Source: Deltaproteobacteria bacterium
GTDB taxonomy: Bacteria; Myxococcota_A; Polyangia; Polyangiales; Polyangiaceae
Length of the DNA: 51,809 nucleotides
Assembly: GCA_016875405.1 (NCBI GenBank)
Contig: VGRJ01000023.1
Location: 1 to 51,809 of the forward strand
Direction: 5' to 3'
The translations under genes were made by a program, and so were the position numbers. A model generated the notes under the pieces. The model saw nothing but the letters and a program-made list of their open reading frames with translations. It did no database searches and was not told the origin of the DNA. This document shows, one piece after another, positions 8,429 to 51,437 of this stretch; positions within the stretch are counted from its first letter, which is position 1, and the number at the start of each line of letters is the position of its first letter.

Positions 8429-9421
8429 TCAACCCTTCGGCTCGTCGGCGGCGGGCGCGTCGTCGGTGTCGCTCCCTGCCCCCTCGTTCCCCGGCTCCTC
8501 ATCCGCCGTCTCGTCGTCCGCCGGCTCGTCGTCGTCCTCGTCCCCTTCGTCGTCGCCCTCTTCGGCCATGGCGGTACGAACGTAGTCGGAGGAGCGGGTC
8601 TTCGTGAGGAAGTACAGGCCGACGGCGAGCGCGAGGAAGCACGCCCACTGCGCGGGAGTGAGGCCTGCGTAGCGAGGGTCTGCCTCGACGATGCGCCCGG
8701 CGTCCTTGGGCTCTATCCGATAAAAGTCGAGCAGGAAGCGGATGGGCGCGTAGGCCGTCAGGGTCAGGCCGACGTAGAAGCCGTTCGCGCGCAACGGGCG
8801 GCGCTGCCAGAGGTAGTGGCAGGCGATGGCGAGCGGGATGGTCAGCGCGAACTCGATGAAGCCGAGATCGATCCGGCCCTCGTAGCCAGCGGCGAGCTGC
8901 TCGACGGGGTAGCGGACGGCAAACCAGGCGTTCGAGAGCTTTCCAGGGTGGTCGTGGACGACGGAGCAGCCGGCGCGCCCAAACACCCATGCGAGCGGAA
9001 ACGCGCTGACGGTGATGTCGACGTACTCGAGGATCGGCCGCCGCCGCGCGTAACGCCACGCGAAGGCACCGATCACCGCGCCGATGAACCCGCCGTAGCT
9101 CGACAGCCCGTCCCATATCTTGAAGAGATAGATCGGGTCTGCCTTGACGCGCGTCGGGTGGTAGAAGAGCGCGTCGAGCATGTGCGACAAGACGAAGCCG
9201 CTCGAGACGACCCAGAAGATGAAGTCGTTGAAGACCTTCTCATCGAGCCTGCGCTCCCTCGCGCGCTTCAGCGTGAGGAGCGAGCCGACGTAGACGCCGA
9301 TCGCCACCAGCGTCCCGAAGGGTTTGATCGACGGCGGGTTCTTCGGGTTCAGGAACTCCAGGAATGGGATCGGGAGCTCGTGATGGGCACCGTCGATGAA
9401 GGGGATGAGCGGACCGGACAC
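8429..9421 (-). CDS. lgt: Prolipoprotein diacylglyceryl transferase with acidic tail
   Basis: Inner-membrane enzyme that transfers diacylglycerol from phosphatidylglycerol to the lipobox cysteine of prolipoproteins, the first step of lipoprotein maturation. Seven or so membrane segments are visible. Conserved features include DGLSSYGGFIGAVIG and the Lgt signature region GRAGCSVVHDHPGK followed by WFAVRYPVEQ. Residues 285-330 form an Asp/Glu-rich tail (MAEEGDDEGDEDDDEP and onward) not found in typical Lgt of about 290 residues. It is transcribed away from moeA, with 47 bases between the two starts. Several lipoprotein genes in this window would depend on it. Confidence 0.93.
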   Translation of the reverse strand: MSGPLIPFIDGAHHELPIPFLEFLNPKNPPSIKPFGTLVAIGVYVGSLLTLKRARERRLDEKVFNDFIFWVVSSGFVLSHMLDALFYHPTRVKADPIYLFKIWDGLSSYGGFIGAVIGAFAWRYARRRPILEYVDITVSAFPLAWVFGRAGCSVVHDHPGKLSNAWFAVRYPVEQLAAGYEGRIDLGFIEFALTIPLAIACHYLWQRRPLRANGFYVGLTLTAYAPIRFLLDFYRIEPKDAGRIVEADPRYAGLTPAQWACFLALAVGLYFLTKTRSSDYVRTAMAEEGDDEGDEDDDEPADDETADEEPGNEGAGSDTDDAPAADEPKG

Positions 9422-15653: not shown

Positions 15654-18600
15654 TCAGAGGTTCATCAGCTGGAGCGGCGGCAAGACGTTGCCCATCTGGT
15701 TCGGCTTGTCGCCGCGCGAGGTGGTGTCACCGAGGCCGAGCTGGCCGCGGTCGTTCGCGCCCCAGCATTTGATGGTGTCGTCCGACAGCCGCGCGCAGGA
15801 GTGATAGATGCCGAGGGTCACGCTCTTGACGAGCTTGGCGGTGCCGAGATCGACGACGAGCAGCTTGTCTCCCATTTGATTCGGGCCGTCCCCTCGGGTG
15901 AGCGAGTCCCCCTGGCCGAGGCCGCCGAAGCCGTTGTAGCCCCAGCACTTGAGCTTCTCGTCGTTCAAGACGGCGCACGCGTGATAGAAGCCCGCTGCGA
16001 CCGCCTTGGCGGTCTTGTTCGCGCCGAGATCGAGCGCGAGGAGCTTGTCGCCCATCTCGCCGGCCTCGTCGCCGAGGTGGCTCGTGTTGCCCTTGCCGAG
16101 CTGGCCGTCCCCGTTGCTGCCCCAGCACTTCAAGGTCGCGTCGTCGAGCACCGCGCAGCTGAAGTAGAAGCCCAGCGCGAGGGACTTGGCCTTGCGGTTT
16201 GCGCCTAGGTCGATCGCGCCGAGGTTTGCGCCCATCTCGTTGGCGTCGTCACCACGACCCTTGACATCTCCATAACCGAGCTGTCCGAACCCGTTGGCGC
16301 CCCAGCATTTCAGCGAGTCGTCATCCAGGAGCGCGCAGCTGTGATAGCCGCCCGCAGCGATCGCCTTTGCGGTGCGGTTCGCGCCGAGGTCGACGCTCGG
16401 GAGGCCATCCCCCATCTCCCCAGCTTCGTCGCCGCGCGATTCCGTGTCGCCGAGGCCGAGCTGGCCATCGGCGTTGTTGCCCCAGCACTTCACCGAATTG
16501 TCATCGAGGATCGCGCACGTGTGATAGCCGCCCGCAGCGATCGCCTTCGCGGTGCGTCCGGTGCCGAGCAGCACGGGAAACAGCGCGTCGCCCATCTCGT
16601 CCCGCTCGTCGCCGCGCGGGCTCGTGTCGCCGACGCCGAGCGAACCGAAGCCGTTGCGTCCCCAGCACTTGACGGTGTTGTTATCGAGGATGGCGCAAGT
16701 GTGGAAGCGCCCCGCGGCGAGGTGCTTCGCGGTGCGACCGGTGCCAAGGTTGACGAATGGCAAGACGTCGCCCATGTCGTCGGGCGTATCGCCGCGGTCC
16801 AGGCCATCCCCGAGCCCGAGCTGCCCGTGGGCGTTGAGGCCCCAGCACTTGACGTTGCCGTCGAAGTAGCGCGCACACGCGTGCGCCTGGCCGGCGACGA
16901 TCTCGACGAGCTGCTTCGAAGGCGTGACGCAAGCGCCCGCGACGCAGAGCCCCCCTGGCGCGCAAGAGTTGCCGCATTGCCCGCAGTCCTTCTCGGAGTT
17001 CTGCGTGTCGACGCACGCCCCCCCGCAATTGGTGAGGCCCTCTGCACACATGGTGTCACAGACGCCGTCCTTGCAAACCTCCCCGGCCGCGCACGGGTTG
17101 TTGCACTGACCGCAGTTCGCGAAGTCGGACTTCAGGTCGACGCAGCCCGTGAAGCAGCGCGTCTCGCCCACCGGGCACCCCGGAACGCAGAGCCCCGTCT
17201 TGCAATCCTGGCCCATCGGGCAGGCGTTGCCGCACTGGCCGCAGTTCGACGGGTCATCGGACAGCGTCACGCACTCGCCGGCGCAGTTCGTCGTTCCCTG
17301 CGCGCACAAGAAACCGCAGCTCCCGTTTGAGCAGACCTTGCCGAGCGAGCACGCGCTCCCGCAAGCGCCGCAGTTCTGGTTGTCGCTCGTGAGCTCGACG
17401 CAGGCGTTCCCGCAGCGCGTCGTCGGCGCCGAGCATTGAACGCCGCAGTCGCCCTTCGAGCATACCTCGTTGCTCGGGCAAGCGTTCGCGCAGATGCCGC
17501 AGTTTTCGGGGTCGAACATGAGGTCGACGCACTCGGCGCCGCACTTCGTCGTGCCGCCGTTGCAGGAGACGCCGCAGACACCGTTTGCGCAGACCTGACC
17601 CGTTGGGCAGGCGTTCCCGCAGGCGCCGCAATTCACGGGGTCGAGCTTGAGGTCCACGCAGCCGAGGCCGCACTTGGTCGTGCCCCCCGAGCAAGAGGTA
17701 CCGCACTGACCGACCGAGCACACCTGCCCCGCAGGGCAAGCGACACCGCACATCCCGCAGTTCAACGGGTCGTTTTGAAGGTCGACGCAGGAGTCGAAGC
17801 ACTCCGTGGTGCCGCCGACGCAATCAAGCCCGCAGAGGCCACCGGAGCAAAGCTGCCCGACCGCACACGACTCCTTGCACATGCCGCAGTTCGCGGGGTC
17901 GTTCTTCAGCGTGACGCAGGTGTCACCGCAGCGCGTCGTACCACCGGCGCAATTCAGCCCGCAGGCGCCGCCGGAGCAGACCTCGCCCGACGCGCACTGG
18001 TTGCCGCAGCTGCCGCAGTTCGAGGCGTCGTCCGTGAGGTCGGCGCACTCGGTGCCGCACTTGGTCGTGCCGGTCGCGCAGGTCGTCCCGCAGACACCTT
18101 GCGAACACAGCTGGCCGGCCGCGCACGCCTTCCCGCACTGGCCGCAGTTCGCGGGGTCGCTCTTCACGTCGACGCAGTCACCCCCGCACTTCGTCTTCCC
18201 GCCGCTGCAGGTGAGGCCGCAGCTGCCGTTCGAGCACACCTCGTCCGAGGCGCACGCCGTCGCACACTTTCCGCAGTTCGCGGGGTCGCTCTTCACGTCG
18301 ACGCAGTCGCCCCCGCACTTGGTCGTCCCGCCCGCGCAGGTGAGGCTGCACACGCCGTTCGAGCACACCTCGCCGGCCGCACAGGCCGTCCCGCATGCGC
18401 CGCAATTGGCCGCGTCGATCTTCGTGTCGACGCAGTCGCCCCCGCACTTGGTCGTCCCGCCCGAGCAACTTAGCTGACAGACGCCATTCGAGCAGAGCTC
18501 GCCGGCCTTGCAGACGGTGCCGCACATCCCGCAATTCGCGCGGTCGCTCTTCACGTTGACGCACTCGTCACCGCACTTCAGCGTCCCGCCCGAGCACTCG

Positions 18601-21600
18601 AGTCCGCACTTGCTGGCAGAGCAGACCTGCCCCGCCGCGCAGGCGATTGTGCATTGGCCGCAGTGGCCGACGTCGGTCGACAAGTTCACGCAGTCGCTGC
18701 CGCACTTCGTGGTGCCGCCGACGCAGGTGGCCCCGCACTTCCCCGACGAGCACACCTCGCCTGTCGGGCAGGCGTTGCCACAGGCGCCGCAGTTCTCTGG
18801 GTCGACCTTCACATCGACGCAGTCGGCGCCGCACTTCGTCGTGCCACCCGAGCAGGTGAGCTTGCAGGCGCCAGCGTCGCAGCCCTCGCCAGGCGCGCAC
18901 GCGACGCCGCAGGTGCCGCAGTTTTGTTCGTCGAGGTCGAGGTCGACGCACTCCGCGCCGCACTTCGTCGTGCCGCCCCCGCAGGTGAGGCCGCACTTTC
19001 CGAAGGAGCACACCTCGGTCGCCTTGCAGACGTTCCCGCACGCCCCGCAGTTGCCAGGATCGCTCGCGACGTCGACGCAAGCATCGCCGCACTTCGTCGA
19101 CCCGCCGCCGCACGTGAGACCACACTTGCTGGCCGAGCAGACCTCGCCCGCGGCGCAAGGAAGCCCGCAGAAGCCGCAGTTGCCAGGGTCGACCTTGACG
19201 TCGACGCACGCGTTGCCGCAGAGCGTCGTGCCGCCGTTGCAGGTGAGGCCGCACTTGCCGGCCGAGCAGACCTGACCCGACACGCAAGCCTCGCCGCACT
19301 TCCCGCAGTTCGCAGGGTCGACCGACAGCGAGACGCAGGCCTCGCCACACTTTGCCGTGCCGCCCGAGCAATCGGCGGCGCACTTGCCGAGCGAGCAGAC
19401 CTGCCCGGCCGCGCAGCCGTTTCCACATAGGCCGCAGTTCGAGGGATCGACGTCGAGGTCGACGCACTGGGTGCCGCACTTCTCGGTGCCGCCGTTGCAG
19501 GTGAGGCCGCAGACGCCGTTTGAGCACACTTCACCGACGCCGCACGCGTTGCCACAACCGCCGCAATTCTCGGGGTCGAGGTCGAGGTCGACGCACTCCG
19601 TGCCGCACTTCTTGGTGCCGCCGACGCAGGTGAGGCCGCACTTGCCAGACGAGCAGACCTGGCCGGCGGGACAGGCGGTGTCACACGCGCCGCAGTTCGC
19701 GGGGTCGAAGCGAACATCGACGCACTCGGTCCCGCAGAGGCTCGTGCCGGCGCTGCAGCTCGTCGCGCAGACACCGTTCGAGCACACCTCGCCCGACGCA
19801 CACGCCTTACCGCACTGGCCGCAGTGGGCGGCGTCCTTCGTGAGGTTCACGCACTCGCTGCCGCACAAGGTCGTCCCGCCGACGCAGTCGACGCCGCAGG
19901 AGCCTGCCGAGCAGACCTCGCCGGCCCCGCAGGCGTCCGCGCACGAGCCGCAGTTCGACGGGTCCAGCTTGGTGTCCACGCACTCGTCGCCGCAGCGGGT
20001 CGTGCCGCCCGAGCACTTCAGCGAGCACGTACCGTTCGAGCAGACCTCACCCGACTTACAGACCGTGCCGCACTTGCCGCAGTGGGCCGCATCGGACTTG
20101 ACGTTGACGCACTCGGTGCCGCACTTCGTCGTGCCGCCGACGCACGAGATCGAGCACCCTCCGCTCGAGCACACCAGATCGGGCGGACACGCGAGGCCAC
20201 ACATCCCGCAGTTCTGCGGGTCGAGGCGGACGTCGACGCACTCGAGGCCGCACTTCGTCGTGCCGCCGGAACAGTCGAGGCCACAGGTCCCGTTCGAGCA
20301 GACCTCACCCGGCCCGCACACCGTCGCGCAGGTCCCGCAGTGCGCCGGATCGAGGTCGAGGTCGACGCAGCTCTGCCCGCACTTCGTCGTGCCGCCGGAG
20401 CAGCCGAGCGCGCAGGTGCCGTTCGAGCAGACCTCGCCGGACTTGCAGGCGGTGCCGCACGCGCCGCAGTTCGACGGATCGACCTTCACGTCGACGCAGC
20501 TCTGTCCGCACTTCGCGGTGCCGCCGAGGCACTCGAACGCGCACTTGCCCGACGAGCAAAATTCTCCCGCCGGGCACGCCGCTCCGCACATGCCGCAGTT
20601 CGCGGGGTCAAAGGCGGGGTCAACGCACTTGCCGCCGCACTTCTCGGTGCCGCCGACGCAGTTGGTGGAGCACTGCCCCGCCGAGCACAGCTCGCCTGCG
20701 CCACACGCGTTCCCGCAGGTCCCGCATTGGGCCGGATCGACAGCGAGGTCGACGCACTTGCCGCCGCACTTCGCGGTCCCGCCCGCGCAGGTGAGACCAC
20801 ACTTTCCGTTCGAGCAGACCTCGCCGGCCTTGCACGACACGCCGCACATGCCGCAGTTTGTCGCGTCGAGCGAGGGGTCAACGCACTTGGTCCCGCATTT
20901 CACCGAACCGCCGGCGCAGTCGAGCGCGCACTTGCCGGCGGAGCAAACCTCACCAGGAGCGCACGCCTTGCCGCACTCGCCGCAGTTCGTCGCGTCCACG
21001 GTGACGTCGACGCACTTGCCGCCGCACTTGGTCGAGCCACCGACGCAATCGAGGAGGCAAGCCCCGCTTGAGCAGACCTGACCGGGCGCACACGCCTCGC
21101 CGCACGAGCCGCAATTCGCGGGGTCAGACTCGGTGTCGACGCACTTGGTCCCGCACTTCACCGAGCCGCCGACGCAGTCGAGCGCGCATTTTCCGCCGGT
21201 GCAGACCTCGCCCGCGCCGCAGGCCTTGCCGCACTCGCCGCAGTTCTTCGGATCGACGGTCACGTCGACGCACTTCGATCCGCACTTGGTCGTGCCGCCC
21301 GAGCAATCGAGCGCGCAGAGCCCAGCCGAGCAGAACTCGCCTGCGGGGCACGAGACCTCACACGAGCCGCAGTGCGCGGGGTCGAGCGACAGATCGAAAC
21401 ATTTCGTCCCGCACTTTTCCGTCCCGCCTGCACACGACGTCGCGCAGCTCCCGTTCGAGCACACCTCGCCGGGGGCGCACTTCTCGCCGCAGCTACCGCA
21501 GTTCAGCGGATCGACCGAGAGATCGACGCAGATGTCCCCGCACTGAGTCGTGCCGCCGATACACTCGTTGCCACACGTCCCCGCCGAGCAGAACTCGTCG

Positions 21601-22070
21601 CTCGCGCACTTCTCGCCGCATTTCCCGCAGTTCTTGGGATCGACCGAGAGATCGACGCAGCGATCGCCGCACTTCTCGGTGCCACCGACGCAGTTGATAC
21701 CGCACTTGCCGGCCGAACAGACCTCGCCCTCGGGACACTTGACCGCGCAATTGCCGCAGTGGCTCGGGTCGAGCTCGAGATCGGCGCAGGTGCCGTCACA
21801 GCTCACCTTCCCGCCGGAGCAGGCATCGACGCAGGCCGACGCAACGCACGTCTGACCATCGGGGCAGGCGGTCCCACACGCGCCGCAGTTCTTCGAGTCG
21901 TTCGCCGGGTCCGAGCAGACGCCGTTGCAGACCTGACGAGGCGCGACGCAGTTGGTGTTTGGCTTGAACGGGTCGGCCTTCGTCTCGTCCTGGGAGCCGC
22001 ACGCGCCGAAGGTGCCGAGGACAAAGAGGACCAAGCCTAGGAGTAAGAAGCGCTTCAAGTGGAACGACAT
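15654..22070 (-). CDS. Giant cysteine-rich repeat lipoprotein with RCC1-like C-terminal propeller
   Basis: A 2138-residue exported lipoprotein. Residues 1-24 are a signal peptide ending in the lipobox GTFGAC, so Cys24 is the predicted lipid anchor. Residues 38-1714 are 39 contiguous repeats of exactly 43 residues, each with eight cysteines in the pattern CxxxxxxC-x3-C-x9-C-x2-C-x3-C-x5-C-x4-C; a typical unit begins GLTCGGGTTKCGAECVDL. The last 424 residues hold seven RCC1-type repeats with HxCA and KCWG motifs, the number expected for a closed seven-bladed propeller. By count there are about 327 cysteines. Repeats resemble the Stig1-type motif (CVD..DP.NCG.CG..C). Start ATG 22070 is preferred over an in-frame start at 22151 because it places the signal peptide at the N-terminus and follows a GGAG. 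Probably a surface stalk or adhesin; function unknown. Confidence 0.9.
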   Translation of the reverse strand: MSFHLKRFLLLGLVLFVLGTFGACGSQDETKADPFKPNTNCVAPRQVCNGVCSDPANDSKNCGACGTACPDGQTCVASACVDACSGGKVSCDGTCADLELDPSHCGNCAVKCPEGEVCSAGKCGINCVGGTEKCGDRCVDLSVDPKNCGKCGEKCASDEFCSAGTCGNECIGGTTQCGDICVDLSVDPLNCGSCGEKCAPGEVCSNGSCATSCAGGTEKCGTKCFDLSLDPAHCGSCEVSCPAGEFCSAGLCALDCSGGTTKCGSKCVDVTVDPKNCGECGKACGAGEVCTGGKCALDCVGGSVKCGTKCVDTESDPANCGSCGEACAPGQVCSSGACLLDCVGGSTKCGGKCVDVTVDATNCGECGKACAPGEVCSAGKCALDCAGGSVKCGTKCVDPSLDATNCGMCGVSCKAGEVCSNGKCGLTCAGGTAKCGGKCVDLAVDPAQCGTCGNACGAGELCSAGQCSTNCVGGTEKCGGKCVDPAFDPANCGMCGAACPAGEFCSSGKCAFECLGGTAKCGQSCVDVKVDPSNCGACGTACKSGEVCSNGTCALGCSGGTTKCGQSCVDLDLDPAHCGTCATVCGPGEVCSNGTCGLDCSGGTTKCGLECVDVRLDPQNCGMCGLACPPDLVCSSGGCSISCVGGTTKCGTECVNVKSDAAHCGKCGTVCKSGEVCSNGTCSLKCSGGTTRCGDECVDTKLDPSNCGSCADACGAGEVCSAGSCGVDCVGGTTLCGSECVNLTKDAAHCGQCGKACASGEVCSNGVCATSCSAGTSLCGTECVDVRFDPANCGACDTACPAGQVCSSGKCGLTCVGGTKKCGTECVDLDLDPENCGGCGNACGVGEVCSNGVCGLTCNGGTEKCGTQCVDLDVDPSNCGLCGNGCAAGQVCSLGKCAADCSGGTAKCGEACVSLSVDPANCGKCGEACVSGQVCSAGKCGLTCNGGTTLCGNACVDVKVDPGNCGFCGLPCAAGEVCSASKCGLTCGGGSTKCGDACVDVASDPGNCGACGNVCKATEVCSFGKCGLTCGGGTTKCGAECVDLDLDEQNCGTCGVACAPGEGCDAGACKLTCSGGTTKCGADCVDVKVDPENCGACGNACPTGEVCSSGKCGATCVGGTTKCGSDCVNLSTDVGHCGQCTIACAAGQVCSASKCGLECSGGTLKCGDECVNVKSDRANCGMCGTVCKAGELCSNGVCQLSCSGGTTKCGGDCVDTKIDAANCGACGTACAAGEVCSNGVCSLTCAGGTTKCGGDCVDVKSDPANCGKCATACASDEVCSNGSCGLTCSGGKTKCGGDCVDVKSDPANCGQCGKACAAGQLCSQGVCGTTCATGTTKCGTECADLTDDASNCGSCGNQCASGEVCSGGACGLNCAGGTTRCGDTCVTLKNDPANCGMCKESCAVGQLCSGGLCGLDCVGGTTECFDSCVDLQNDPLNCGMCGVACPAGQVCSVGQCGTSCSGGTTKCGLGCVDLKLDPVNCGACGNACPTGQVCANGVCGVSCNGGTTKCGAECVDLMFDPENCGICANACPSNEVCSKGDCGVQCSAPTTRCGNACVELTSDNQNCGACGSACSLGKVCSNGSCGFLCAQGTTNCAGECVTLSDDPSNCGQCGNACPMGQDCKTGLCVPGCPVGETRCFTGCVDLKSDFANCGQCNNPCAAGEVCKDGVCDTMCAEGLTNCGGACVDTQNSEKDCGQCGNSCAPGGLCVAGACVTPSKQLVEIVAGQAHACARYFDGNVKCWGLNAHGQLGLGDGLDRGDTPDDMGDVLPFVNLGTGRTAKHLAAGRFHTCAILDNNTVKCWGRNGFGSLGVGDTSPRGDERDEMGDALFPVLLGTGRTAKAIAAGGYHTCAILDDNSVKCWGNNADGQLGLGDTESRGDEAGEMGDGLPSVDLGANRTAKAIAAGGYHSCALLDDDSLKCWGANGFGQLGYGDVKGRGDDANEMGANLGAIDLGANRKAKSLALGFYFSCAVLDDATLKCWGSNGDGQLGKGNTSHLGDEAGEMGDKLLALDLGANKTAKAVAAGFYHACAVLNDEKLKCWGYNGFGGLGQGDSLTRGDGPNQMGDKLLVVDLGTAKLVKSVTLGIYHSCARLSDDTIKCWGANDRGQLGLGDTTSRGDKPNQMGNVLPPLQLMNL
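15657..16928 (-). repeat. Seven RCC1-like repeats within the cysteine-rich lipoprotein
   Basis: Codes for the C-terminal 424 residues. Each unit is about 58-60 residues and contains G-x-x-H-x-C-A, K-C-W-G, a GQLGLGD-type turn and an RGD or similar pair followed by a D/N-x-MGD motif. KCWG occurs seven times. Confidence 0.85.
16929..21959 (-). repeat. 39 tandem 129-base coding repeats (43-residue, 8-Cys units)
   Basis: The span of 5031 bases equals 39 times 129 exactly, so no unit has gained or lost a codon. Units are diverged from each other at the protein level (conserved cysteines, glycines and NCG; variable elsewhere). The opposite strand stays open over long runs because of the repeat composition, which yields spurious antisense frames. 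Confidence 0.92.
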
Positions 22071-22106
22071 GCGACGATGACTCCGTGCCCCAGCACCTAA
22101 GCGTGG

Positions 22107-22160: not shown

Positions 22161-22619
22161 TCAGCCCTTTTTTCGGACGCCGTGCACCTGAACCCCGTCG
22201 AGGCGGTAGAGGTACAGCTTTGTCACGCCACGTGCCGCGAGCGGCCTGTCGAGCCCGAGGTAGACGAAGTGCATCTTCCCCTTGCCGGCGGGGTGCTCCT
22301 CGCTCCGATCCTCGCCCGCGTCGGTCATCAGGAACACGCCATCACCGCTCGTCACCTCGAGGTTCGGGAGCGGTCGGAGGAGCACGTCGCTGCGGCCCCA
22401 GCGCACGCTCGCTGCGTCCGACAGCACGAAGCGAGACAGGTTCTCGTCGACGAGGGCGACCATCGGGAGGCACTCGCCGACCTCGTCGAGGTGCTCCGGC
22501 TGGCCGATGTGGAAGTACTTCCGCGGCGGCACGGGTGAGCTCGCGGCTTCGTTCTGCAGGACGGTCAAGCGGCGGAGAAGGGTCATCGAAAAACGCTCGG
22601 GGTCGATCGAACGCAGCAT
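22161..22619 (-). CDS. Hypothetical protein
   Basis: A 152-residue soluble protein I do not recognise. It has no signal peptide or membrane segment. Central sequence FHIGQPEHLDEVGECLPMVAL and the C-terminal half, with several predicted beta strands (VLLRPLPNLEV, GVFLMTD, MHFVYLGL, TKLYLYRLDGVQVHGV), suggest a compact beta-rich fold. I chose ATG 22619 because GAGG lies about nine bases upstream; ATG 22586 is an alternative giving 141 residues. It is divergent from the aldehyde dehydrogenase, with only 64 bases between starts, so the two may share a regulatory region. Confidence 0.7.
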   Translation of the reverse strand: MLRSIDPERFSMTLLRRLTVLQNEAASSPVPPRKYFHIGQPEHLDEVGECLPMVALVDENLSRFVLSDAASVRWGRSDVLLRPLPNLEVTSGDGVFLMTDAGEDRSEEHPAGKGKMHFVYLGLDRPLAARGVTKLYLYRLDGVQVHGVRKKG

Positions 22620-22683
22620 AGCTCGTGACCTCGGAGACACCACCGGCTTGACCGGGCCGCCCGAAACGAGGATACGTCGCGAC

Positions 22684-24222
22684 GTGAGTGAGTTTCCGTG
22701 CCATTCGCCCGTCGACGGCAGTGAGCTGCCGACGATCGAGGCCACCTGTCCGTCGACGGTAGCGAGCCTCGTCGACCGAGCGCGCGGAGCATCCGTAAGC
22801 TGGGGCGACACCGCCCTCGCGCGGCGCGTCGAGCTCATCGCCGAGGTCGAGCGACGGCTCCTGGGGCGCGCGGACGAGATCGCCGCGCTGGTGAGGCTCG
22901 AGGTCGGCAAGCCGCTCGAAGAGGCCTGCCTCGCCGAGGTCCTGCCGAACGCAGACCTCGTCAGCTACTGGTGCGACGCGATCGAGGAGCTCCTCGAGCC
23001 CATCCGGGTCGAGCCGGATCCGCTGAGCTACCCTGGCAAGCACGGCCGCGTGAGCCGCGCGCCACGTGGCGTCGTCGCGCTCGTCACACCCTGGAACTAC
23101 CCCGTCGCGATTCCGCTCCGGACCCTCGTACCGGCGCTGCTCGCGGGGAACGCGGTGGTGTGGAAGCCGAGCGAAGTCACCCCGCGCTCGGGGGCGCTGG
23201 TCGCCGCTCTGTTCGAAGGCCTCGTGCCGAAGGACGTGCTCACGGTGGTTCAGGGCGGTGCCGACGTCGGACGCGCGCTCGTCGAGGCCGCGGTCGACTC
23301 GGTGGTCTTCACGGGCAGCGTCGCGACCGGACGGACGATCGCCCGTAGCTGCGCCGAGCGCTTCATCCCCTGCTCCCTGGAGCTCGGAGGCAAGGACGCC
23401 GCGATCGTCCTCGCCGACTGCGACCTCGAGCGCACCGCGAACGGGCTCGTATGGGGGGCCTTCACGAACGCGGGCCAGAACTGCGCCGCCATCGAGCGCG
23501 TCTACGTCGAGCGCGCGATCGCCGAGCCGCTCATCGAGCGCATCGTCGCGACGACGCGAACGCTCGGCGCCTCGGACGTCGGGGTCCTGACCACGCTCGC
23601 GCAGGCCGAGAAGGTCCGCGAACACCTCCGCGACGCTATCGCCAAGGGCGCCCAGGTGCTCGTCGGAGGCGAGCCCGAGGGCGAGGCGAACCCGCGCGCG
23701 TTTCCGCCGACGGTGCTGAAGATCGAAGGCGATGCAGCGAGCGCGAAGGCGATGACCGACGAGACGTTCGGTCCCCTCTTGCCCATCCAAGTCGTAGAAG
23801 ACCTGGACGAGGCCGTGCGGCTCACGAACGCGTCGAGCTACCAGCTCACGACGAGCGTGTGGACGCGCAACACGTCGCGCGGTGACGCCGTCGCAGCGCA
23901 GCTTCGGAGCGGGATTGTGACGGTGAACAACCACGCCTTCACGGCGGCGCTCGCCTCGACGCCATGGACCGGAGTCGGCGACACCGGGACGGGCGTGACG
24001 AATGGCCCCCACTGCCTGACCAGCCTGACGAGGCCGCGACTCGTCCTTGTCGACACGAACGGCGCGAAGCGCGAGCTGTGGTGGTACCCGTACACCCCGG
24101 CCCTTCGGACGGTCGCCTTCGCGATGGCGGTCGTGCGTGGCGGCGGGGGTCTGGTCGCGCGCCTCGCGGCGCTGCCGCGGCTCGTCGGCGCGCTCGTCCG
24201 ACGACTCCTTGGAAAGAGCTGA
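22684..24222 (+). CDS. Aldehyde dehydrogenase family protein
   Basis: NAD(P)-dependent oxidation of an aldehyde to the acid; specific substrate not determinable. 512 residues. Family motifs in order: TPWNYP and KPSEVTP (cofactor binding), FTGSVATGR, the general-base glutamate in LELGGKD, the catalytic cysteine in GQNCAA, and ETFGPLLPI near the C-terminus. About 80 residues follow the core NNHAF motif, including WYPYTP and a basic, hydrophobic end that could touch membrane. Start set at GTG 22684, preceded by GAGG; longer upstream readings run into the divergent gene and lack family similarity. surE follows after 22 bases on the same strand. Confidence 0.9.
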   Translation: MSEFPCHSPVDGSELPTIEATCPSTVASLVDRARGASVSWGDTALARRVELIAEVERRLLGRADEIAALVRLEVGKPLEEACLAEVLPNADLVSYWCDAIEELLEPIRVEPDPLSYPGKHGRVSRAPRGVVALVTPWNYPVAIPLRTLVPALLAGNAVVWKPSEVTPRSGALVAALFEGLVPKDVLTVVQGGADVGRALVEAAVDSVVFTGSVATGRTIARSCAERFIPCSLELGGKDAAIVLADCDLERTANGLVWGAFTNAGQNCAAIERVYVERAIAEPLIERIVATTRTLGASDVGVLTTLAQAEKVREHLRDAIAKGAQVLVGGEPEGEANPRAFPPTVLKIEGDAASAKAMTDETFGPLLPIQVVEDLDEAVRLTNASSYQLTTSVWTRNTSRGDAVAAQLRSGIVTVNNHAFTAALASTPWTGVGDTGTGVTNGPHCLTSLTRPRLVLVDTNGAKRELWWYPYTPALRTVAFAMAVVRGGGGLVARLAALPRLVGALVRRLLGKS

Positions 24223-24244
24223 GCGCCTCGCGCGCACGAGGACG

Positions 24245-46076: not shown

Positions 46077-49000
46077 ATGTCGATCGAACTGATCCGGGGA
46101 GAACTCGAGCGCCTTTACTCGCTCGAGGCAATGATGGACCTGTCCAGCCGCCTGCTCGGCTTCGAGCCTCGCGAGGTGGGCGGTACCGCGTCGAGCGCAT
46201 CGTTCGCAAGGGCGCTCACCGAATACTGCCGCGAGCGCGACGCCGTCGCTGCGCTGGTGGACGCGGTGATCGCGACGAAGGGCGACTCGGTGCCGCAGCT
46301 CCCTCGGGCGCTAGAAGCCGTGCTGCGCGCCCCGATCGAGCTCAAGGTCGGTGACTCGTTCGGCGAGTTCAAGATCACGAAGAAACTCGGCGCGGGCCCG
46401 AACGGGTCCGTCTTCCTCGCGAAACGCGACGACGCGGGGTACGTGCTCAAGATCTTGCATGCGGCGGCGACCCACGACGGCAGCGCCGTGCATCGCTTCC
46501 TTACCCGGAACCGCGTCGCAGGCAGCCTTGGCTGCGACAACCTCCCGTCAGGCGTGACGGCCGGATTCCTCGACGGAAAGCCCTTCGTCGCATACGAAGC
46601 GGCGGAGGGTCAGCCGCTCGCAGCGCGCGTCGGCCGGGGCGGAGCGCTTCACATCAACGAGGCCCGACCGATCCTGCATGGCGTGCTCGCGGCCCTCACG
46701 GCGCTGCATTCGCGGAAGGTCGCGCACGGGGCCGTGAAGCTCGAGAACGTCCTGGTCGGCAAGAAGGCCGACGGCGCTCCGCGCGTCGTTTTGGTCGATG
46801 GCGCTGGCGATCTGCTCTGGTCCGCGTGGATCCATTCCGACACGACAACGTCGAGCGCGAGCCGCGTGAAGGGCCTCGCCCCCGAGATCGTGCGCGGCGG
46901 CTCCGCAGGCCTGCGCGGGGACGTCTATGCCCTCGGCGCGATGATGTTCGAGCTGCTCACAGGCAAGCCGCCGATCGAAGAGGGCTCTGCCTCGGATCTT
47001 GCCCTCGCCCACGTCTCGAAGACGCCGCCGCGCGCGCAGAATATCGCGCCGAAGGGCTGGGTGAGCGATGCGCTCGGGGATCTGTGCGCGCGCATGCTCG
47101 CGAAGGACCCCGAGGCTCGCCCGGACCTCGCGGCGATCGCGCACGTCCTCGGCCCCGTGGAAGACTCCGTGAAGGCGATCGAGAACGACGAGCTGACGAA
47201 CGCGGTCGACCTGCTCGTCGCCGATCCGACCGACATCGAGGCCGCCATCGCGCTCGAGCTGACCCTCGACCGCAAGGCGGATCCGACCAAGGTCGCGGAG
47301 GCCTTCCTCATGGCGGCCGACATGGTCGACCTCGACGAGGCCGCCCGCGCTGCCGGCGCCGGTGAGGAGAGCGAGGCCGTCCGCGAGGTCAAGGCCGACG
47401 CGGCCCGGGATCGCGCGCGCGAGGTCAAGAAGAGCCTCCTGTTCCGAGCAGCCCGACTGTTCGAGAGCCGACTGAAGAGCCACACCGCGGCCGAAGACGC
47501 GTTCAAGGCAGTCCTCGACCTCGACCCCGAAGACGACGTCGCTCAAGTCGGCTACGAAGCCGCGTTGAAGGCGCAAGACAAGCTCGACGAGCTCGTCGAG
47601 CGGCTGCTTGAGGTCGGCCAGAGCAGCACGAGTCACTCCGAGCGCTCGCGCGCGTTGCACAAGATCGGGCAGCTCTACGCGGGTCCGCTCGACGACAAGG
47701 AGCAGGCGGTCTTCGCCTTCGCGCAAGCCCTCGCACAGGACCTTCAGAACGACGATTACGCCGACGACCTGGAGCGCACGGCCGGCACCGACATGAACCT
47801 GTGGGCCCAGGCGATGCGCGAGCTCCACGAGGTCTCCTCGCACCCGCGCATGCCGCAAGAGACGCGGATCGCCCTCTTTACGCGGCTCGGCCGCTGGTAC
47901 GTCGAGAAGGTCGGCCGCCCAGACCTCGGCCTCCCCTGCTTCGACTCGGTGCTGACCATCGAGCCAGCGCACGAAGGCGCGCTTCAAGGCATGTGCGACG
48001 TGTACCGAAAGGCGCAGCAGTGGCACGAGCTCGTCGCGGTGCTCATCACCCGTGTCGATCGAGCCCTCACTCCTGAGCGCGCTCGCGACCTACGGTCCGA
48101 GGCCGCAGAAATTCTCGAGACACGAATCAACGAGCCCGGCCGCGCCCGCGACCTCTACGAAGCGACGCTCGCCGAAGACCCAGGGCACCAGAAAACGGTC
48201 GACGCGCTCGCTCGGCTCTACCAGCGGAGCGGCGACTGGGCGGGGTACGTCAAGATCCTCGACCGCCAGGCGGAAGCGTTGACTGGCGCCGCGCGCGCCG
48301 AGACTGTCGCGCGGATCGCTGAGATCTACGAGGACAACCTCTCGGACTTCGCGGAGGCCCAGCGCCGTTACGAGGCTTCGCTCGAGCTCGATCCAGCGTG
48401 CCTGTCGGCCATCCGTGGCCTCGACCGCGTCTTCAACCGCACGGGCCGATACGGCGAGCTCCTCGCGAACCTCGAGAAGCAGGTGACCATGAGCGCAACG
48501 CCGCGCCAGAAGATCACCCTGCTCGAGCGCATCGCGGGCATCCACGACGAAGAGTTCCTCGACCACGGCAAGGCCGCCGAGGCGCTCGAGGGCGTACTCG
48601 CACTCGACGCGGGCCACGAGGGCGCGCTCACCGGACTGATGCGCCATTACCGCGCGCTCGACCGCTGGGACGACGTCAACGCGCTCTACGAGCGGACCCT
48701 CAAGATCACCACCGAGCCCGCACGTCGGGTCACGCTGTTGCTCGCACAGGGCCGCGTACTCCTGGATCAAGTCGGCTCGCCCGAGCGTGCGCGACAAGCT
48801 TACGAGGCCGTGCTCCAGATCGATCCGCAGAACGCCTCGGCGCTCGACTCGCTCGCGCACGTGCGCGCGGCAACGGGCGACGCGATGGCCGCGTTGACGG
48901 CCGTCGAGACGCTCGCCGAGAAGGCCGAGAGCCCCGAGGCTCGCGCCGAGCAGTGGGTGCGCGCGGGACGCATCCTCGAGCAGCACGGCGATCGCGACGG

Positions 49001-51437
49001 TGCGATTCAACGCTTCAAGCTGGCGCTCGAAGCGGTCCCCCACCACCCCGCAGCGTCCGACGCGCTGCGCAAGGCGTACCTCGCGCGCGGCGATGCAGCC
49101 CAGGCGGCCGAGCTCATTGAGGCGGAGGTCGAGCGGACCGAAGGCAAGCTGGCGAAAGCGCGCCTCCTCTTCGACCTCGCGGTGCTGCGGCGCGAGAAGC
49201 TGAAGGACGACGATGCGGCGCGCGAGGCAGCGAACCGCGCGCTCACGGCCGACCCAGGACACGCGGGCTCGCTCCTCTTGCTCGGCGACATTGCGTTCGA
49301 GCGAGAGCAGTTCATCGAAGCATCGAACCACTTCGGGGGCCTCGCCTCGCGCCTCGATGCGCTCTCGAAGCCCGACGCGAAGCGACTCCTCGTTCGTTAC
49401 ATCGACTCGCTCGCGCGAAGCGGCTCGACGGAGAAGGCGAAGTCGACCGTGCAAGCGTTGCTCGAGCTCGCGCCGGAGGACCACGAAGCCCTCGCGCGCG
49501 TCGCTCGGGTGCAGCTCGACTCCGGTGACGCGGTCGGCGCGGTCGCGACGTACGAGAAGCTCTTCGAGTCGTTCGGCAGCGCGCTGGTCGGCGAGGAGCG
49601 CGGCAACGCGCTCTTGCAGCGCGGCAAGGCGCTCCGCGTCGCGGGGAAGACGGCCGATGCAGTGGCGATCCTCCAAGAAGCCTCTGAGCTCTTGCTCGGC
49701 AGCCCTGCCACGCTCGACGAGCTCGGCCGGGTGTACGAAGCGACGGGCGCTTGGGAGGACGTCGTTCGCGTGAAGCAACAGCAGCTCGACGTGGCCGAGG
49801 GCGAGGGCCGAACGAACCTGCTCGTGGAGATCGGCGAGGTGCTCGCCACGCAGCTCAAGGATGCGACCCGGGCCGCGAAGAGCTTCGTCGCCGCCCTCGA
49901 CGAGCGCCCTGACGATCGCCGCGTCCTCACGCGCTTGATGCGCCTCTATTCCGAGGAGAAGGACTGGTCGAGGCTTCTCGACATCCTCGTCAAGCTTGCC
50001 GACAGCGCAGACGACGACAAGCAGAAGGCCAAGTACATTCACACCGCCGCGGGGATCGCCATCCGTCAGGTCGAGGACCTCGAGCGGGGCGTCGAGCTGC
50101 TCGGCAAGGTGCTCGAGATGGAGCCCGAGAACGACAAGGCGCTCGGCGAGCTCGTCGACGCTCGGTCGAAGAGGGGTGACTGGGACCAGGTCGTCGAGCT
50201 CCTGCAGAAGCAGCTCGAGCGTGCGGAGAAGGCCTCCGATAAGGACCGTCAGGTTAAGCTCCACGACAAGCTCGCGCGGATCCACAAGGACGAGCAAAAC
50301 CGCCTCGACGCCTCGGTCGCGCAGCTCGAGAAGGCGCTGGCCCTCGTCCCCGAAGACGAGGTTCGGCTCGCCGCGCTCCTCGAGATCTACGTCGGTGACC
50401 TCGACCAGTACGTCGAGAAGGCCCTCGTGGTGCAGCACGAGATGCTGCGGCGCGATCCGTTCACCCCTGCGGGATATCGAACCCTTCGCAAGCTCTACAC
50501 CCACAAGAAGGAGCCGGACCCGGCGTGGTGCGCTTGCCAGGTACTTCACGCGATGAAGTCGGCGGAGCCGGACGAGCAGCGATTCTTCACGCGCATGCGC
50601 GCCGAGACGGCGGCCGAAGCCCGTGAGCGCGTCACCGTCGAGGAATGGAACAACGTCCTCACCCACGAGCTCGTCGACCCGATCCTCACGCAAATCTTTC
50701 AGCTCATCGAGCCGGCGGTGTTCGCGAAGAACACGAGGCCCCTCGAGCAGCTCGCCCTGCACCCGGCGTACGCGGTCGACCTCGCGTCGTTCCCGTACCC
50801 GATCCCGCAGACGTTGTTCTACGCCGCCGGCGTCCTCGGGCTCACACCGCCGCCCGCGCTGCACAATCCCCAGGATCCCAACGGCATCACCTTCCTCCAC
50901 GCGACGCCACCTTCCATCATGCTCGGCCAGGCCGCGCTCGTGACGGGCCTGCCGACCCAGGCGAGCGCCTTCATCGCAGCGCGTCACCTCACCTACTACC
51001 GACCCGGCCTCTACGTGCGGCACCTGGTCCCGACCGGGACTGGCCTCCGCGCGTGGCTCTTCGGCGCGATCCGTCTCATCCACGAGGCGTTCCCCGTCGC
51101 CGCCGAGCTCGAGAGCACCGTGAAGGAGAACAGCCAGGCGATCCGCCCGGTCGTCGAGGGCCCAATCCGTGAGCAGCTCGCGAGCCTGGTCACGAAGCTG
51201 CTCCAGGGCGGCTCCATCGATCTGAAGCGATGGGTGGCGGGCGTCGACCTTACCGCCGACCGTGCCGGCTTGCTGGTTGCGCACGACCTCGAGACCGCGT
51301 GCGACATGGTGAAGGCCTCGGACGAAGCGAGCGCGGCCCTCCCGCACCGAGACCGCATTAAGGAACTGACGACGTTCTCGGTGGATCCGAAGTACTTCGC
51401 GCTCCGTCGCAAGCTCGGAATCAGTATCGACGCGTGA
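46077..51437 (+). CDS. Giant TPR protein with N-terminal kinase-like (probable pseudokinase) domain
   Basis: 1786 residues, no signal peptide. Residues 96-358 follow the Hanks-type kinase fold: glycine loop GAGPNGS (105-111), Lys125, then where HRDxKxxN is expected the protein has HGAVKLEN (217-224), so the catalytic Asp is Ala219; the DFG position reads DGA (241-243). APE (268-270) and Asp282 remain. These losses suggest a pseudokinase. Residues about 380-1500 are repeated TPR/HAT-like helix pairs. The last 270 residues are a different domain beginning near EWNNVLTHELVDPILTQIF, conserved-looking but unknown. Likely a cytoplasmic scaffold. Downstream of the FtsB-like gene. Confidence 0.85.
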   Translation: MSIELIRGELERLYSLEAMMDLSSRLLGFEPREVGGTASSASFARALTEYCRERDAVAALVDAVIATKGDSVPQLPRALEAVLRAPIELKVGDSFGEFKITKKLGAGPNGSVFLAKRDDAGYVLKILHAAATHDGSAVHRFLTRNRVAGSLGCDNLPSGVTAGFLDGKPFVAYEAAEGQPLAARVGRGGALHINEARPILHGVLAALTALHSRKVAHGAVKLENVLVGKKADGAPRVVLVDGAGDLLWSAWIHSDTTTSSASRVKGLAPEIVRGGSAGLRGDVYALGAMMFELLTGKPPIEEGSASDLALAHVSKTPPRAQNIAPKGWVSDALGDLCARMLAKDPEARPDLAAIAHVLGPVEDSVKAIENDELTNAVDLLVADPTDIEAAIALELTLDRKADPTKVAEAFLMAADMVDLDEAARAAGAGEESEAVREVKADAARDRAREVKKSLLFRAARLFESRLKSHTAAEDAFKAVLDLDPEDDVAQVGYEAALKAQDKLDELVERLLEVGQSSTSHSERSRALHKIGQLYAGPLDDKEQAVFAFAQALAQDLQNDDYADDLERTAGTDMNLWAQAMRELHEVSSHPRMPQETRIALFTRLGRWYVEKVGRPDLGLPCFDSVLTIEPAHEGALQGMCDVYRKAQQWHELVAVLITRVDRALTPERARDLRSEAAEILETRINEPGRARDLYEATLAEDPGHQKTVDALARLYQRSGDWAGYVKILDRQAEALTGAARAETVARIAEIYEDNLSDFAEAQRRYEASLELDPACLSAIRGLDRVFNRTGRYGELLANLEKQVTMSATPRQKITLLERIAGIHDEEFLDHGKAAEALEGVLALDAGHEGALTGLMRHYRALDRWDDVNALYERTLKITTEPARRVTLLLAQGRVLLDQVGSPERARQAYEAVLQIDPQNASALDSLAHVRAATGDAMAALTAVETLAEKAESPEARAEQWVRAGRILEQHGDRDGAIQRFKLALEAVPHHPAASDALRKAYLARGDAAQAAELIEAEVERTEGKLAKARLLFDLAVLRREKLKDDDAAREAANRALTADPGHAGSLLLLGDIAFEREQFIEASNHFGGLASRLDALSKPDAKRLLVRYIDSLARSGSTEKAKSTVQALLELAPEDHEALARVARVQLDSGDAVGAVATYEKLFESFGSALVGEERGNALLQRGKALRVAGKTADAVAILQEASELLLGSPATLDELGRVYEATGAWEDVVRVKQQQLDVAEGEGRTNLLVEIGEVLATQLKDATRAAKSFVAALDERPDDRRVLTRLMRLYSEEKDWSRLLDILVKLADSADDDKQKAKYIHTAAGIAIRQVEDLERGVELLGKVLEMEPENDKALGELVDARSKRGDWDQVVELLQKQLERAEKASDKDRQVKLHDKLARIHKDEQNRLDASVAQLEKALALVPEDEVRLAALLEIYVGDLDQYVEKALVVQHEMLRRDPFTPAGYRTLRKLYTHKKEPDPAWCACQVLHAMKSAEPDEQRFFTRMRAETAAEARERVTVEEWNNVLTHELVDPILTQIFQLIEPAVFAKNTRPLEQLALHPAYAVDLASFPYPIPQTLFYAAGVLGLTPPPALHNPQDPNGITFLHATPPSIMLGQAALVTGLPTQASAFIAARHLTYYRPGLYVRHLVPTGTGLRAWLFGAIRLIHEAFPVAAELESTVKENSQAIRPVVEGPIREQLASLVTKLLQGGSIDLKRWVAGVDLTADRAGLLVAHDLETACDMVKASDEASAALPHRDRIKELTTFSVDPKYFALRRKLGISIDA

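Follow-up and report, generated by a model that had tools for sequence, protein, structure and literature searches.

The gene considered here comes from a bacterium related to myxobacteria and lies on the minus strand of the 51,809-nucleotide stretch of DNA that was analysed (hereafter the window), at the positions already given for it in a preliminary description of the sequence, 15654-22070. Its open reading frame runs from an ATG at 22070 to a stop codon at 15654-15656, with a GGAG motif resembling a ribosome site at 22081-22084, before the signal-peptide start, and it translates into a stalk-and-head protein of 2138 amino acids whose parts are collected in Table 1. Our count of its cysteines agrees with the earlier one of about 327, 312 of them in the repeats: one is Cys24, 312 belong to the 39 units with eight each, and the other 14 form one C-x9-C pair in each of the seven propeller blades.

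Table 1. Parts of the stalk-and-head protein and their positions in the window.
Feature	Positions	Strand	Basis
Signal peptide, residues 1-23 (MSFHLKRFLLLGLVLFVLGTFGA)	22002..22070	-	translation
Cys24, predicted lipidated +1 residue; mature N-terminus CGSQDETK	21999..22001	-	translation, relatives
Short linker, residues 25-40	21951..21998	-	translation
39 tandem STIG1/MXAN_6577-type units, 43 residues and 8 Cys each, residues 41-1714	16929..21950	-	
Short linker from last unit to head, residues 1715-1722	16905..16928	-	
Seven-bladed RCC1-like propeller, residues 1723-2138, 60 residues per blade	15657..16904	-	domain matches, model

An operon partner was sought among the neighbouring genes, which encode an aldehyde dehydrogenase, SurE, a class II tRNA-synthetase-like protein, a TPR protein, MoeA and Lgt, among others, and no linked system was found. 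The gene for Lgt (prolipoprotein diacylglyceryl transferase) lies at 8429-9421 on the minus strand, about 6 kb from the 3′ end of the lipoprotein gene, whilst a 631-amino-acid open frame at 22342-24237 (minus strand), opposite the aldehyde dehydrogenase, is probably spurious. Further along, positions 46077-51437 of the plus strand encode a 1786-amino-acid protein kinase that also contains an extended TPR array, and the contig ends (51700-51809) in an 18/36-base tandem repeat (CCGCGAAGAAGGCTGCGA), one frame of which would read as an Ala/Lys-rich sequence resembling a histone-H1-like tail.

The array had been described as 39 exact repeats of 43 residues with eight cysteines, which is true of the unit length and the cysteine register and not of the sequence copies. 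Successive units lie 43 residues apart in all 38 steps and the cysteine spacing is 6-3-9-2-3-5-4 in 39/39 units; the pairwise identity between units, however, averages 55% in amino acids and 64% in DNA, and reaches at most 79% and 81%, respectively. The array has no Trp and no Tyr, and is 17.5% Gly and 18.6% Cys, with only six His. Identity between units is lowest at third codon positions (0.56, against 0.66 and 0.69 at the first and second), a pattern that fits old duplications under selection at the protein level, and the nearest unit to 33 of the 39 is another unit of the same array, which shows that the array expanded within its own lineage; its growth is old enough for the units to have diverged. 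An assembly artefact arising from near-identical repeats is unlikely, given that the best DNA identity between any two units is only 81%.

Both repeat families to which the array was assigned match it far above their thresholds: Pfam Stig1 (PF04885) in 39 stretches with 633.2 bits and an E-value of 5e-195 (gathering score 24.1), and the NCBIfam family NF041328, MXAN_6577-like Cys-rich, with 1273.5 bits (curated cut-off 100). Scores of this size exclude chance as the origin of the array and of the blades, and confirm that the gene with its 39-unit array is real and striking. The family occurs in all 39 genomes of a set comprising the window genome and its near relatives and in none of 14 control genomes; a query of 20 units found matches in 166 of 379 genomes sampled across the phylum and in 168 of 184 genomes of the order, bearing out the earlier remark that such Cys-rich repeat proteins occur in this group.

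When units were counted in unbroken 43-residue register at about 250 loci besides the window copies, mostly the best-scoring among the matches listed, in a set of genomes of which many are fragmented, no array was longer than the one in the window. The next longest runs have 35 units (L183 and L184, with 36 units in all), 29 (L182) and 28 (L193), followed by 27 (L131), 25 (L132 and L200) and 24 (L185). The 39 units are thus the top of a continuum, the longest found among the loci opened, and the description of the stalk as very long is upheld even with relatives reaching 35-36 units. The exact 43-residue register, on the other hand, is typical of the subfamily and nothing special to this protein, which shares with the NF041328/Stig1 relatives the same repeat by profile and, with most of the long ones, the same lipoprotein N-terminus, and differs from them in keeping 39 units in one unbroken register where most have fewer. 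A sub-variant of the repeat, with the fifth cysteine shifted by one residue, was seen in six STIG1-type units of another locus (L209, G286:C357). Literature searches found no reported function for bacterial MXAN_6577-like/Stig1 arrays, no paper on MXAN_6577, no experiment on any family member and, where STIG1 was combined with myxobacteria, nothing beyond peptide names that are unrelated. The protein belongs to a known, widespread and uncharacterised family, within which it is notable mainly for its length and regularity.

Structure prediction of a few units had been proposed as a check on the stalk. An AlphaFold2 model of four units (89 aligned rows) has a pLDDT of 87.1, with two small, ordered beta hairpins in each unit (residues 6-13 and 34-41); the low pTM of 0.54 makes the geometry between units, and with it the stiffness of the stalk, uncertain. 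Three units searched with phmmer against PDB sequences matched nothing at E up to 1, the four-unit model had no Foldseek match at E ≤ 0.001, and the R-spondin Fu domains, considered as a relative of the stalk, aligned too weakly (VIA-align Z 2.2 over 64 residues). Other Cys-rich modules of about 40 residues span 2.5-3 nm each, and an extended rod in the order of 100 nm might result if each unit here spans as much.

All eight cysteines are kept in 1891 of 1910 distinct units. In the units lacking C5, either the cysteine has moved by one position (seven cases) or C2 is missing as well (four cases, in three families); in a few others, C3 or C2 is the only cysteine lost. The four joint losses of C2 and C5, where about 0.01 would be expected, fit a C2-C5 disulfide. 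In addition, the same genome encodes VKOR and thioredoxin domains in one 748-amino-acid open frame (L201, G000:C76), likely a periplasmic disulfide-forming enzyme, and it may be this system that oxidises the cysteines of the array. The four disulfides per unit suggested earlier are thereby supported indirectly, one pair through the joint losses and oxidised cysteines more generally through export and the VKOR-thioredoxin fusion. A metal-binding or redox-buffering array of the metallothionein type, built without disulfide modules, could be imagined from the 312 cysteines in 1677 residues and the CxxC motifs among them. It is nevertheless improbable, as the protein is exported in an organism with a VKOR-thioredoxin fusion, exactly two cysteines, C2 and C5, are lost jointly, ordered beta hairpins are predicted, His is scarce in the array, and the units are homologous to secreted STIG1 domains.

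The seven-bladed propeller tip proposed earlier is supported. Pfam finds seven RCC1_2 stretches, PF25390 scores 237.5 bits (cut-off 150), and AlphaFold2 models the last unit and the head as seven repeated three-stranded blades with a pLDDT of 95.7 and a pTM of 0.89. In Foldseek and VIA-align comparisons the head model lies closest to UVR8 (Z 53.7, rmsd 2.0 over 369 residues), also near HERC2 and RCC1, and less close to BLIP-II (Z 26, rmsd 2.6 over 245 residues) and to the CRINKLY4/ACR4 ectodomain (Z about 26). Across 44 heads the cysteine pairs of the blades show little or no variation, which is consistent with one disulfide per blade. While UVR8, the HERC2 RLD and RCC1 have the same seven-bladed RCC1-like propeller, the head described here is exported, has a C-x9-C pair in every blade and sits on a Cys-rich stalk. 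Neither its sequence nor the model comparisons gave any sign of light sensing or nucleotide-exchange activity, and Ran-type guanine-nucleotide exchange is unlikely because the protein is exported; what eukaryotic RCC1 proteins do cannot be transferred to this head, and no specific match in the domain and structure comparisons predicts its function. Of the two less close structures, BLIP-II is a secreted bacterial propeller of the same class whose fold forms a protein-binding surface (it binds beta-lactamase); it has no stalk in its solved structures, however, and the likeness is one of fold. Plant CRINKLY4/ACR4 likewise has an extracellular RCC1-like propeller, which also adjoins a Cys-rich region, but it is a receptor kinase with one such region, in place of a stalk of 39 units.

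At the other end of the protein, the signal peptide is followed by a lipobox-type TFGA|C24, a permissive form with F at -3, and since nearly all long-array relatives start with the same two elements, the earlier view of a lipoprotein anchored by Cys24 holds as a prediction from sequence. In M. xanthus, Lys at +2 of the mature protein is linked to inner-membrane lipoproteins and Ala at +7 to sorting to the matrix (PMC3222651). Here +2 is Gly and +7 is Thr, so that both the inner-membrane pattern and the Ala of FibA-type matrix sorting are absent. Anchoring in the outer membrane seems most likely, and the protein may by analogy be exposed at the surface, although the array could also have its function within the periplasm or be released.

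In nearly all long relatives the layout is the same, signal and lipobox leading into the array and the array into a C-terminal part that varies between proteins: RCC1 blades (L185), an SGL/Vgb-like propeller (L130), a weak Gp38 adhesin-like match (L152) or unnamed domains, many of these parts being small or unnamed. RCC1 heads, in turn, are found on STIG1 arrays, DDGN-type Cys-rich repeats, EGF-like repeats and simple linkers, most of these heads having blades of about 50-60 residues. Among them are a lipoprotein-like protein of 959 amino acids in which about ten Cys-rich repeats of the DDGN type precede the RCC1 head (L273, G004:C5) and a protein of 2810 amino acids that combines EGF-like repeats with 14 RCC1 blades (L133, G033:C451); a relative from the same genus (G003:C19) pairs about ten units with a head of five blades, and appears to be frameshifted close to its start in the assembly concerned. 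A tree of 76 heads, built by a quick method with no bootstrap and with some long branches, groups the window head with five others of its genus in a starred set (SH-aLRT 95); five of these six have stalks of 39, about 7, 2, 5 and 5 STIG1 units, and the sixth has another Cys-rich stalk. Because the starred branches of the tree require the STIG1 label to have changed three times or more, and RCC1 heads sit on such varied stalks, stalk and head behave as exchangeable modules.

A tandem-domain stalk projecting a terminal head is also the plan of periscope proteins and fibrillar adhesins (PMC8201768, PMC9210967), and both elements, a repetitive stalk and a terminal head, are present here as far as sequence and model tell. 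Periscope proteins are defined by near-identical repeats and a variable repeat number (PMC8201768), and the array with its head, together with the range of 2 to 39 units among related heads of the genus, might suggest an adhesin of this type, whose unit number shifts fast by recombination between near-identical repeats. The units are too diverged for this, in amino acids as well as in DNA, to count as highly similar repeats. A survey of repeat number, also proposed earlier, could be made in two congeneric pairs of relatives, of other species than that of the window: L183 and L184 both have 36 units, with an identity of 0.83 between units at the same position and 0.64 between those at other positions, and L132 and L200 both have 27 (0.87 and 0.61). 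In these two pairs, then, unit count is equal and order conserved, and a fast-shifting array is unlikely. The predicted disulfide-rich modules and the Gram-negative lipid anchor further set the protein apart from periscope proteins and fibrillar adhesins.

The interpretation that we favour, with a probability of roughly 0.6, is that of an outer-membrane lipoprotein in which 39 disulfide-locked STIG1 modules hold a ligand-binding RCC1-like head away from the membrane. The protein would be exported by Sec, lipidated at Cys24, oxidised at its array cysteines in the periplasm and transported to the outer membrane, where the propeller, displayed at the tip of a long stalk, could bind a partner on a cell, prey or matrix in adhesion or recognition. 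Signal and lipobox, array, head fold and modular reuse are read from sequence or prediction, whilst we infer the location at the outer membrane and surface, the extended rod, its reach and the ligand-binding role. The main rival is a shed or vesicle-borne form, that is, a structural protein of matrix or vesicles in which the Cys-rich array itself is functional as a tough, polymer-like material and the propeller only docks. Such a role would recall MXAN_0889, an RCC1-repeat protein of M. xanthus that proved specific to outer-membrane vesicles (PMC4158809), and would suit the many relatives with long arrays but small or unnamed C-terminal parts. Yet a span of 2 to 39 units among related heads is better fitted to a spacer than to bulk material, no multimerisation domain was seen, and Thr stands at +7 in place of the Ala of M. 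xanthus matrix sorting (PMC3222651), which together make this alternative rather unlikely.

It is tempting to go further and to see in the STIG1 arrays of Myxococcota a class of their own, surface rods of fixed length that are locked by disulfides and bear interchangeable heads, their unit number being constant within a lineage, although we hold this generalisation only tentatively. If the class is real, it would be a modular long-reach contact system, with the window protein as its extreme case and, at the same time, a good subject for testing whether reach depends on the number of units. Proteins of this sort are often numerous in a Myxococcota genome, and we found no paper on the function of their arrays; should these be long stalks with swappable heads, they would represent a large and unstudied share of the means by which social and predatory bacteria make contact with cells, prey and matrix.
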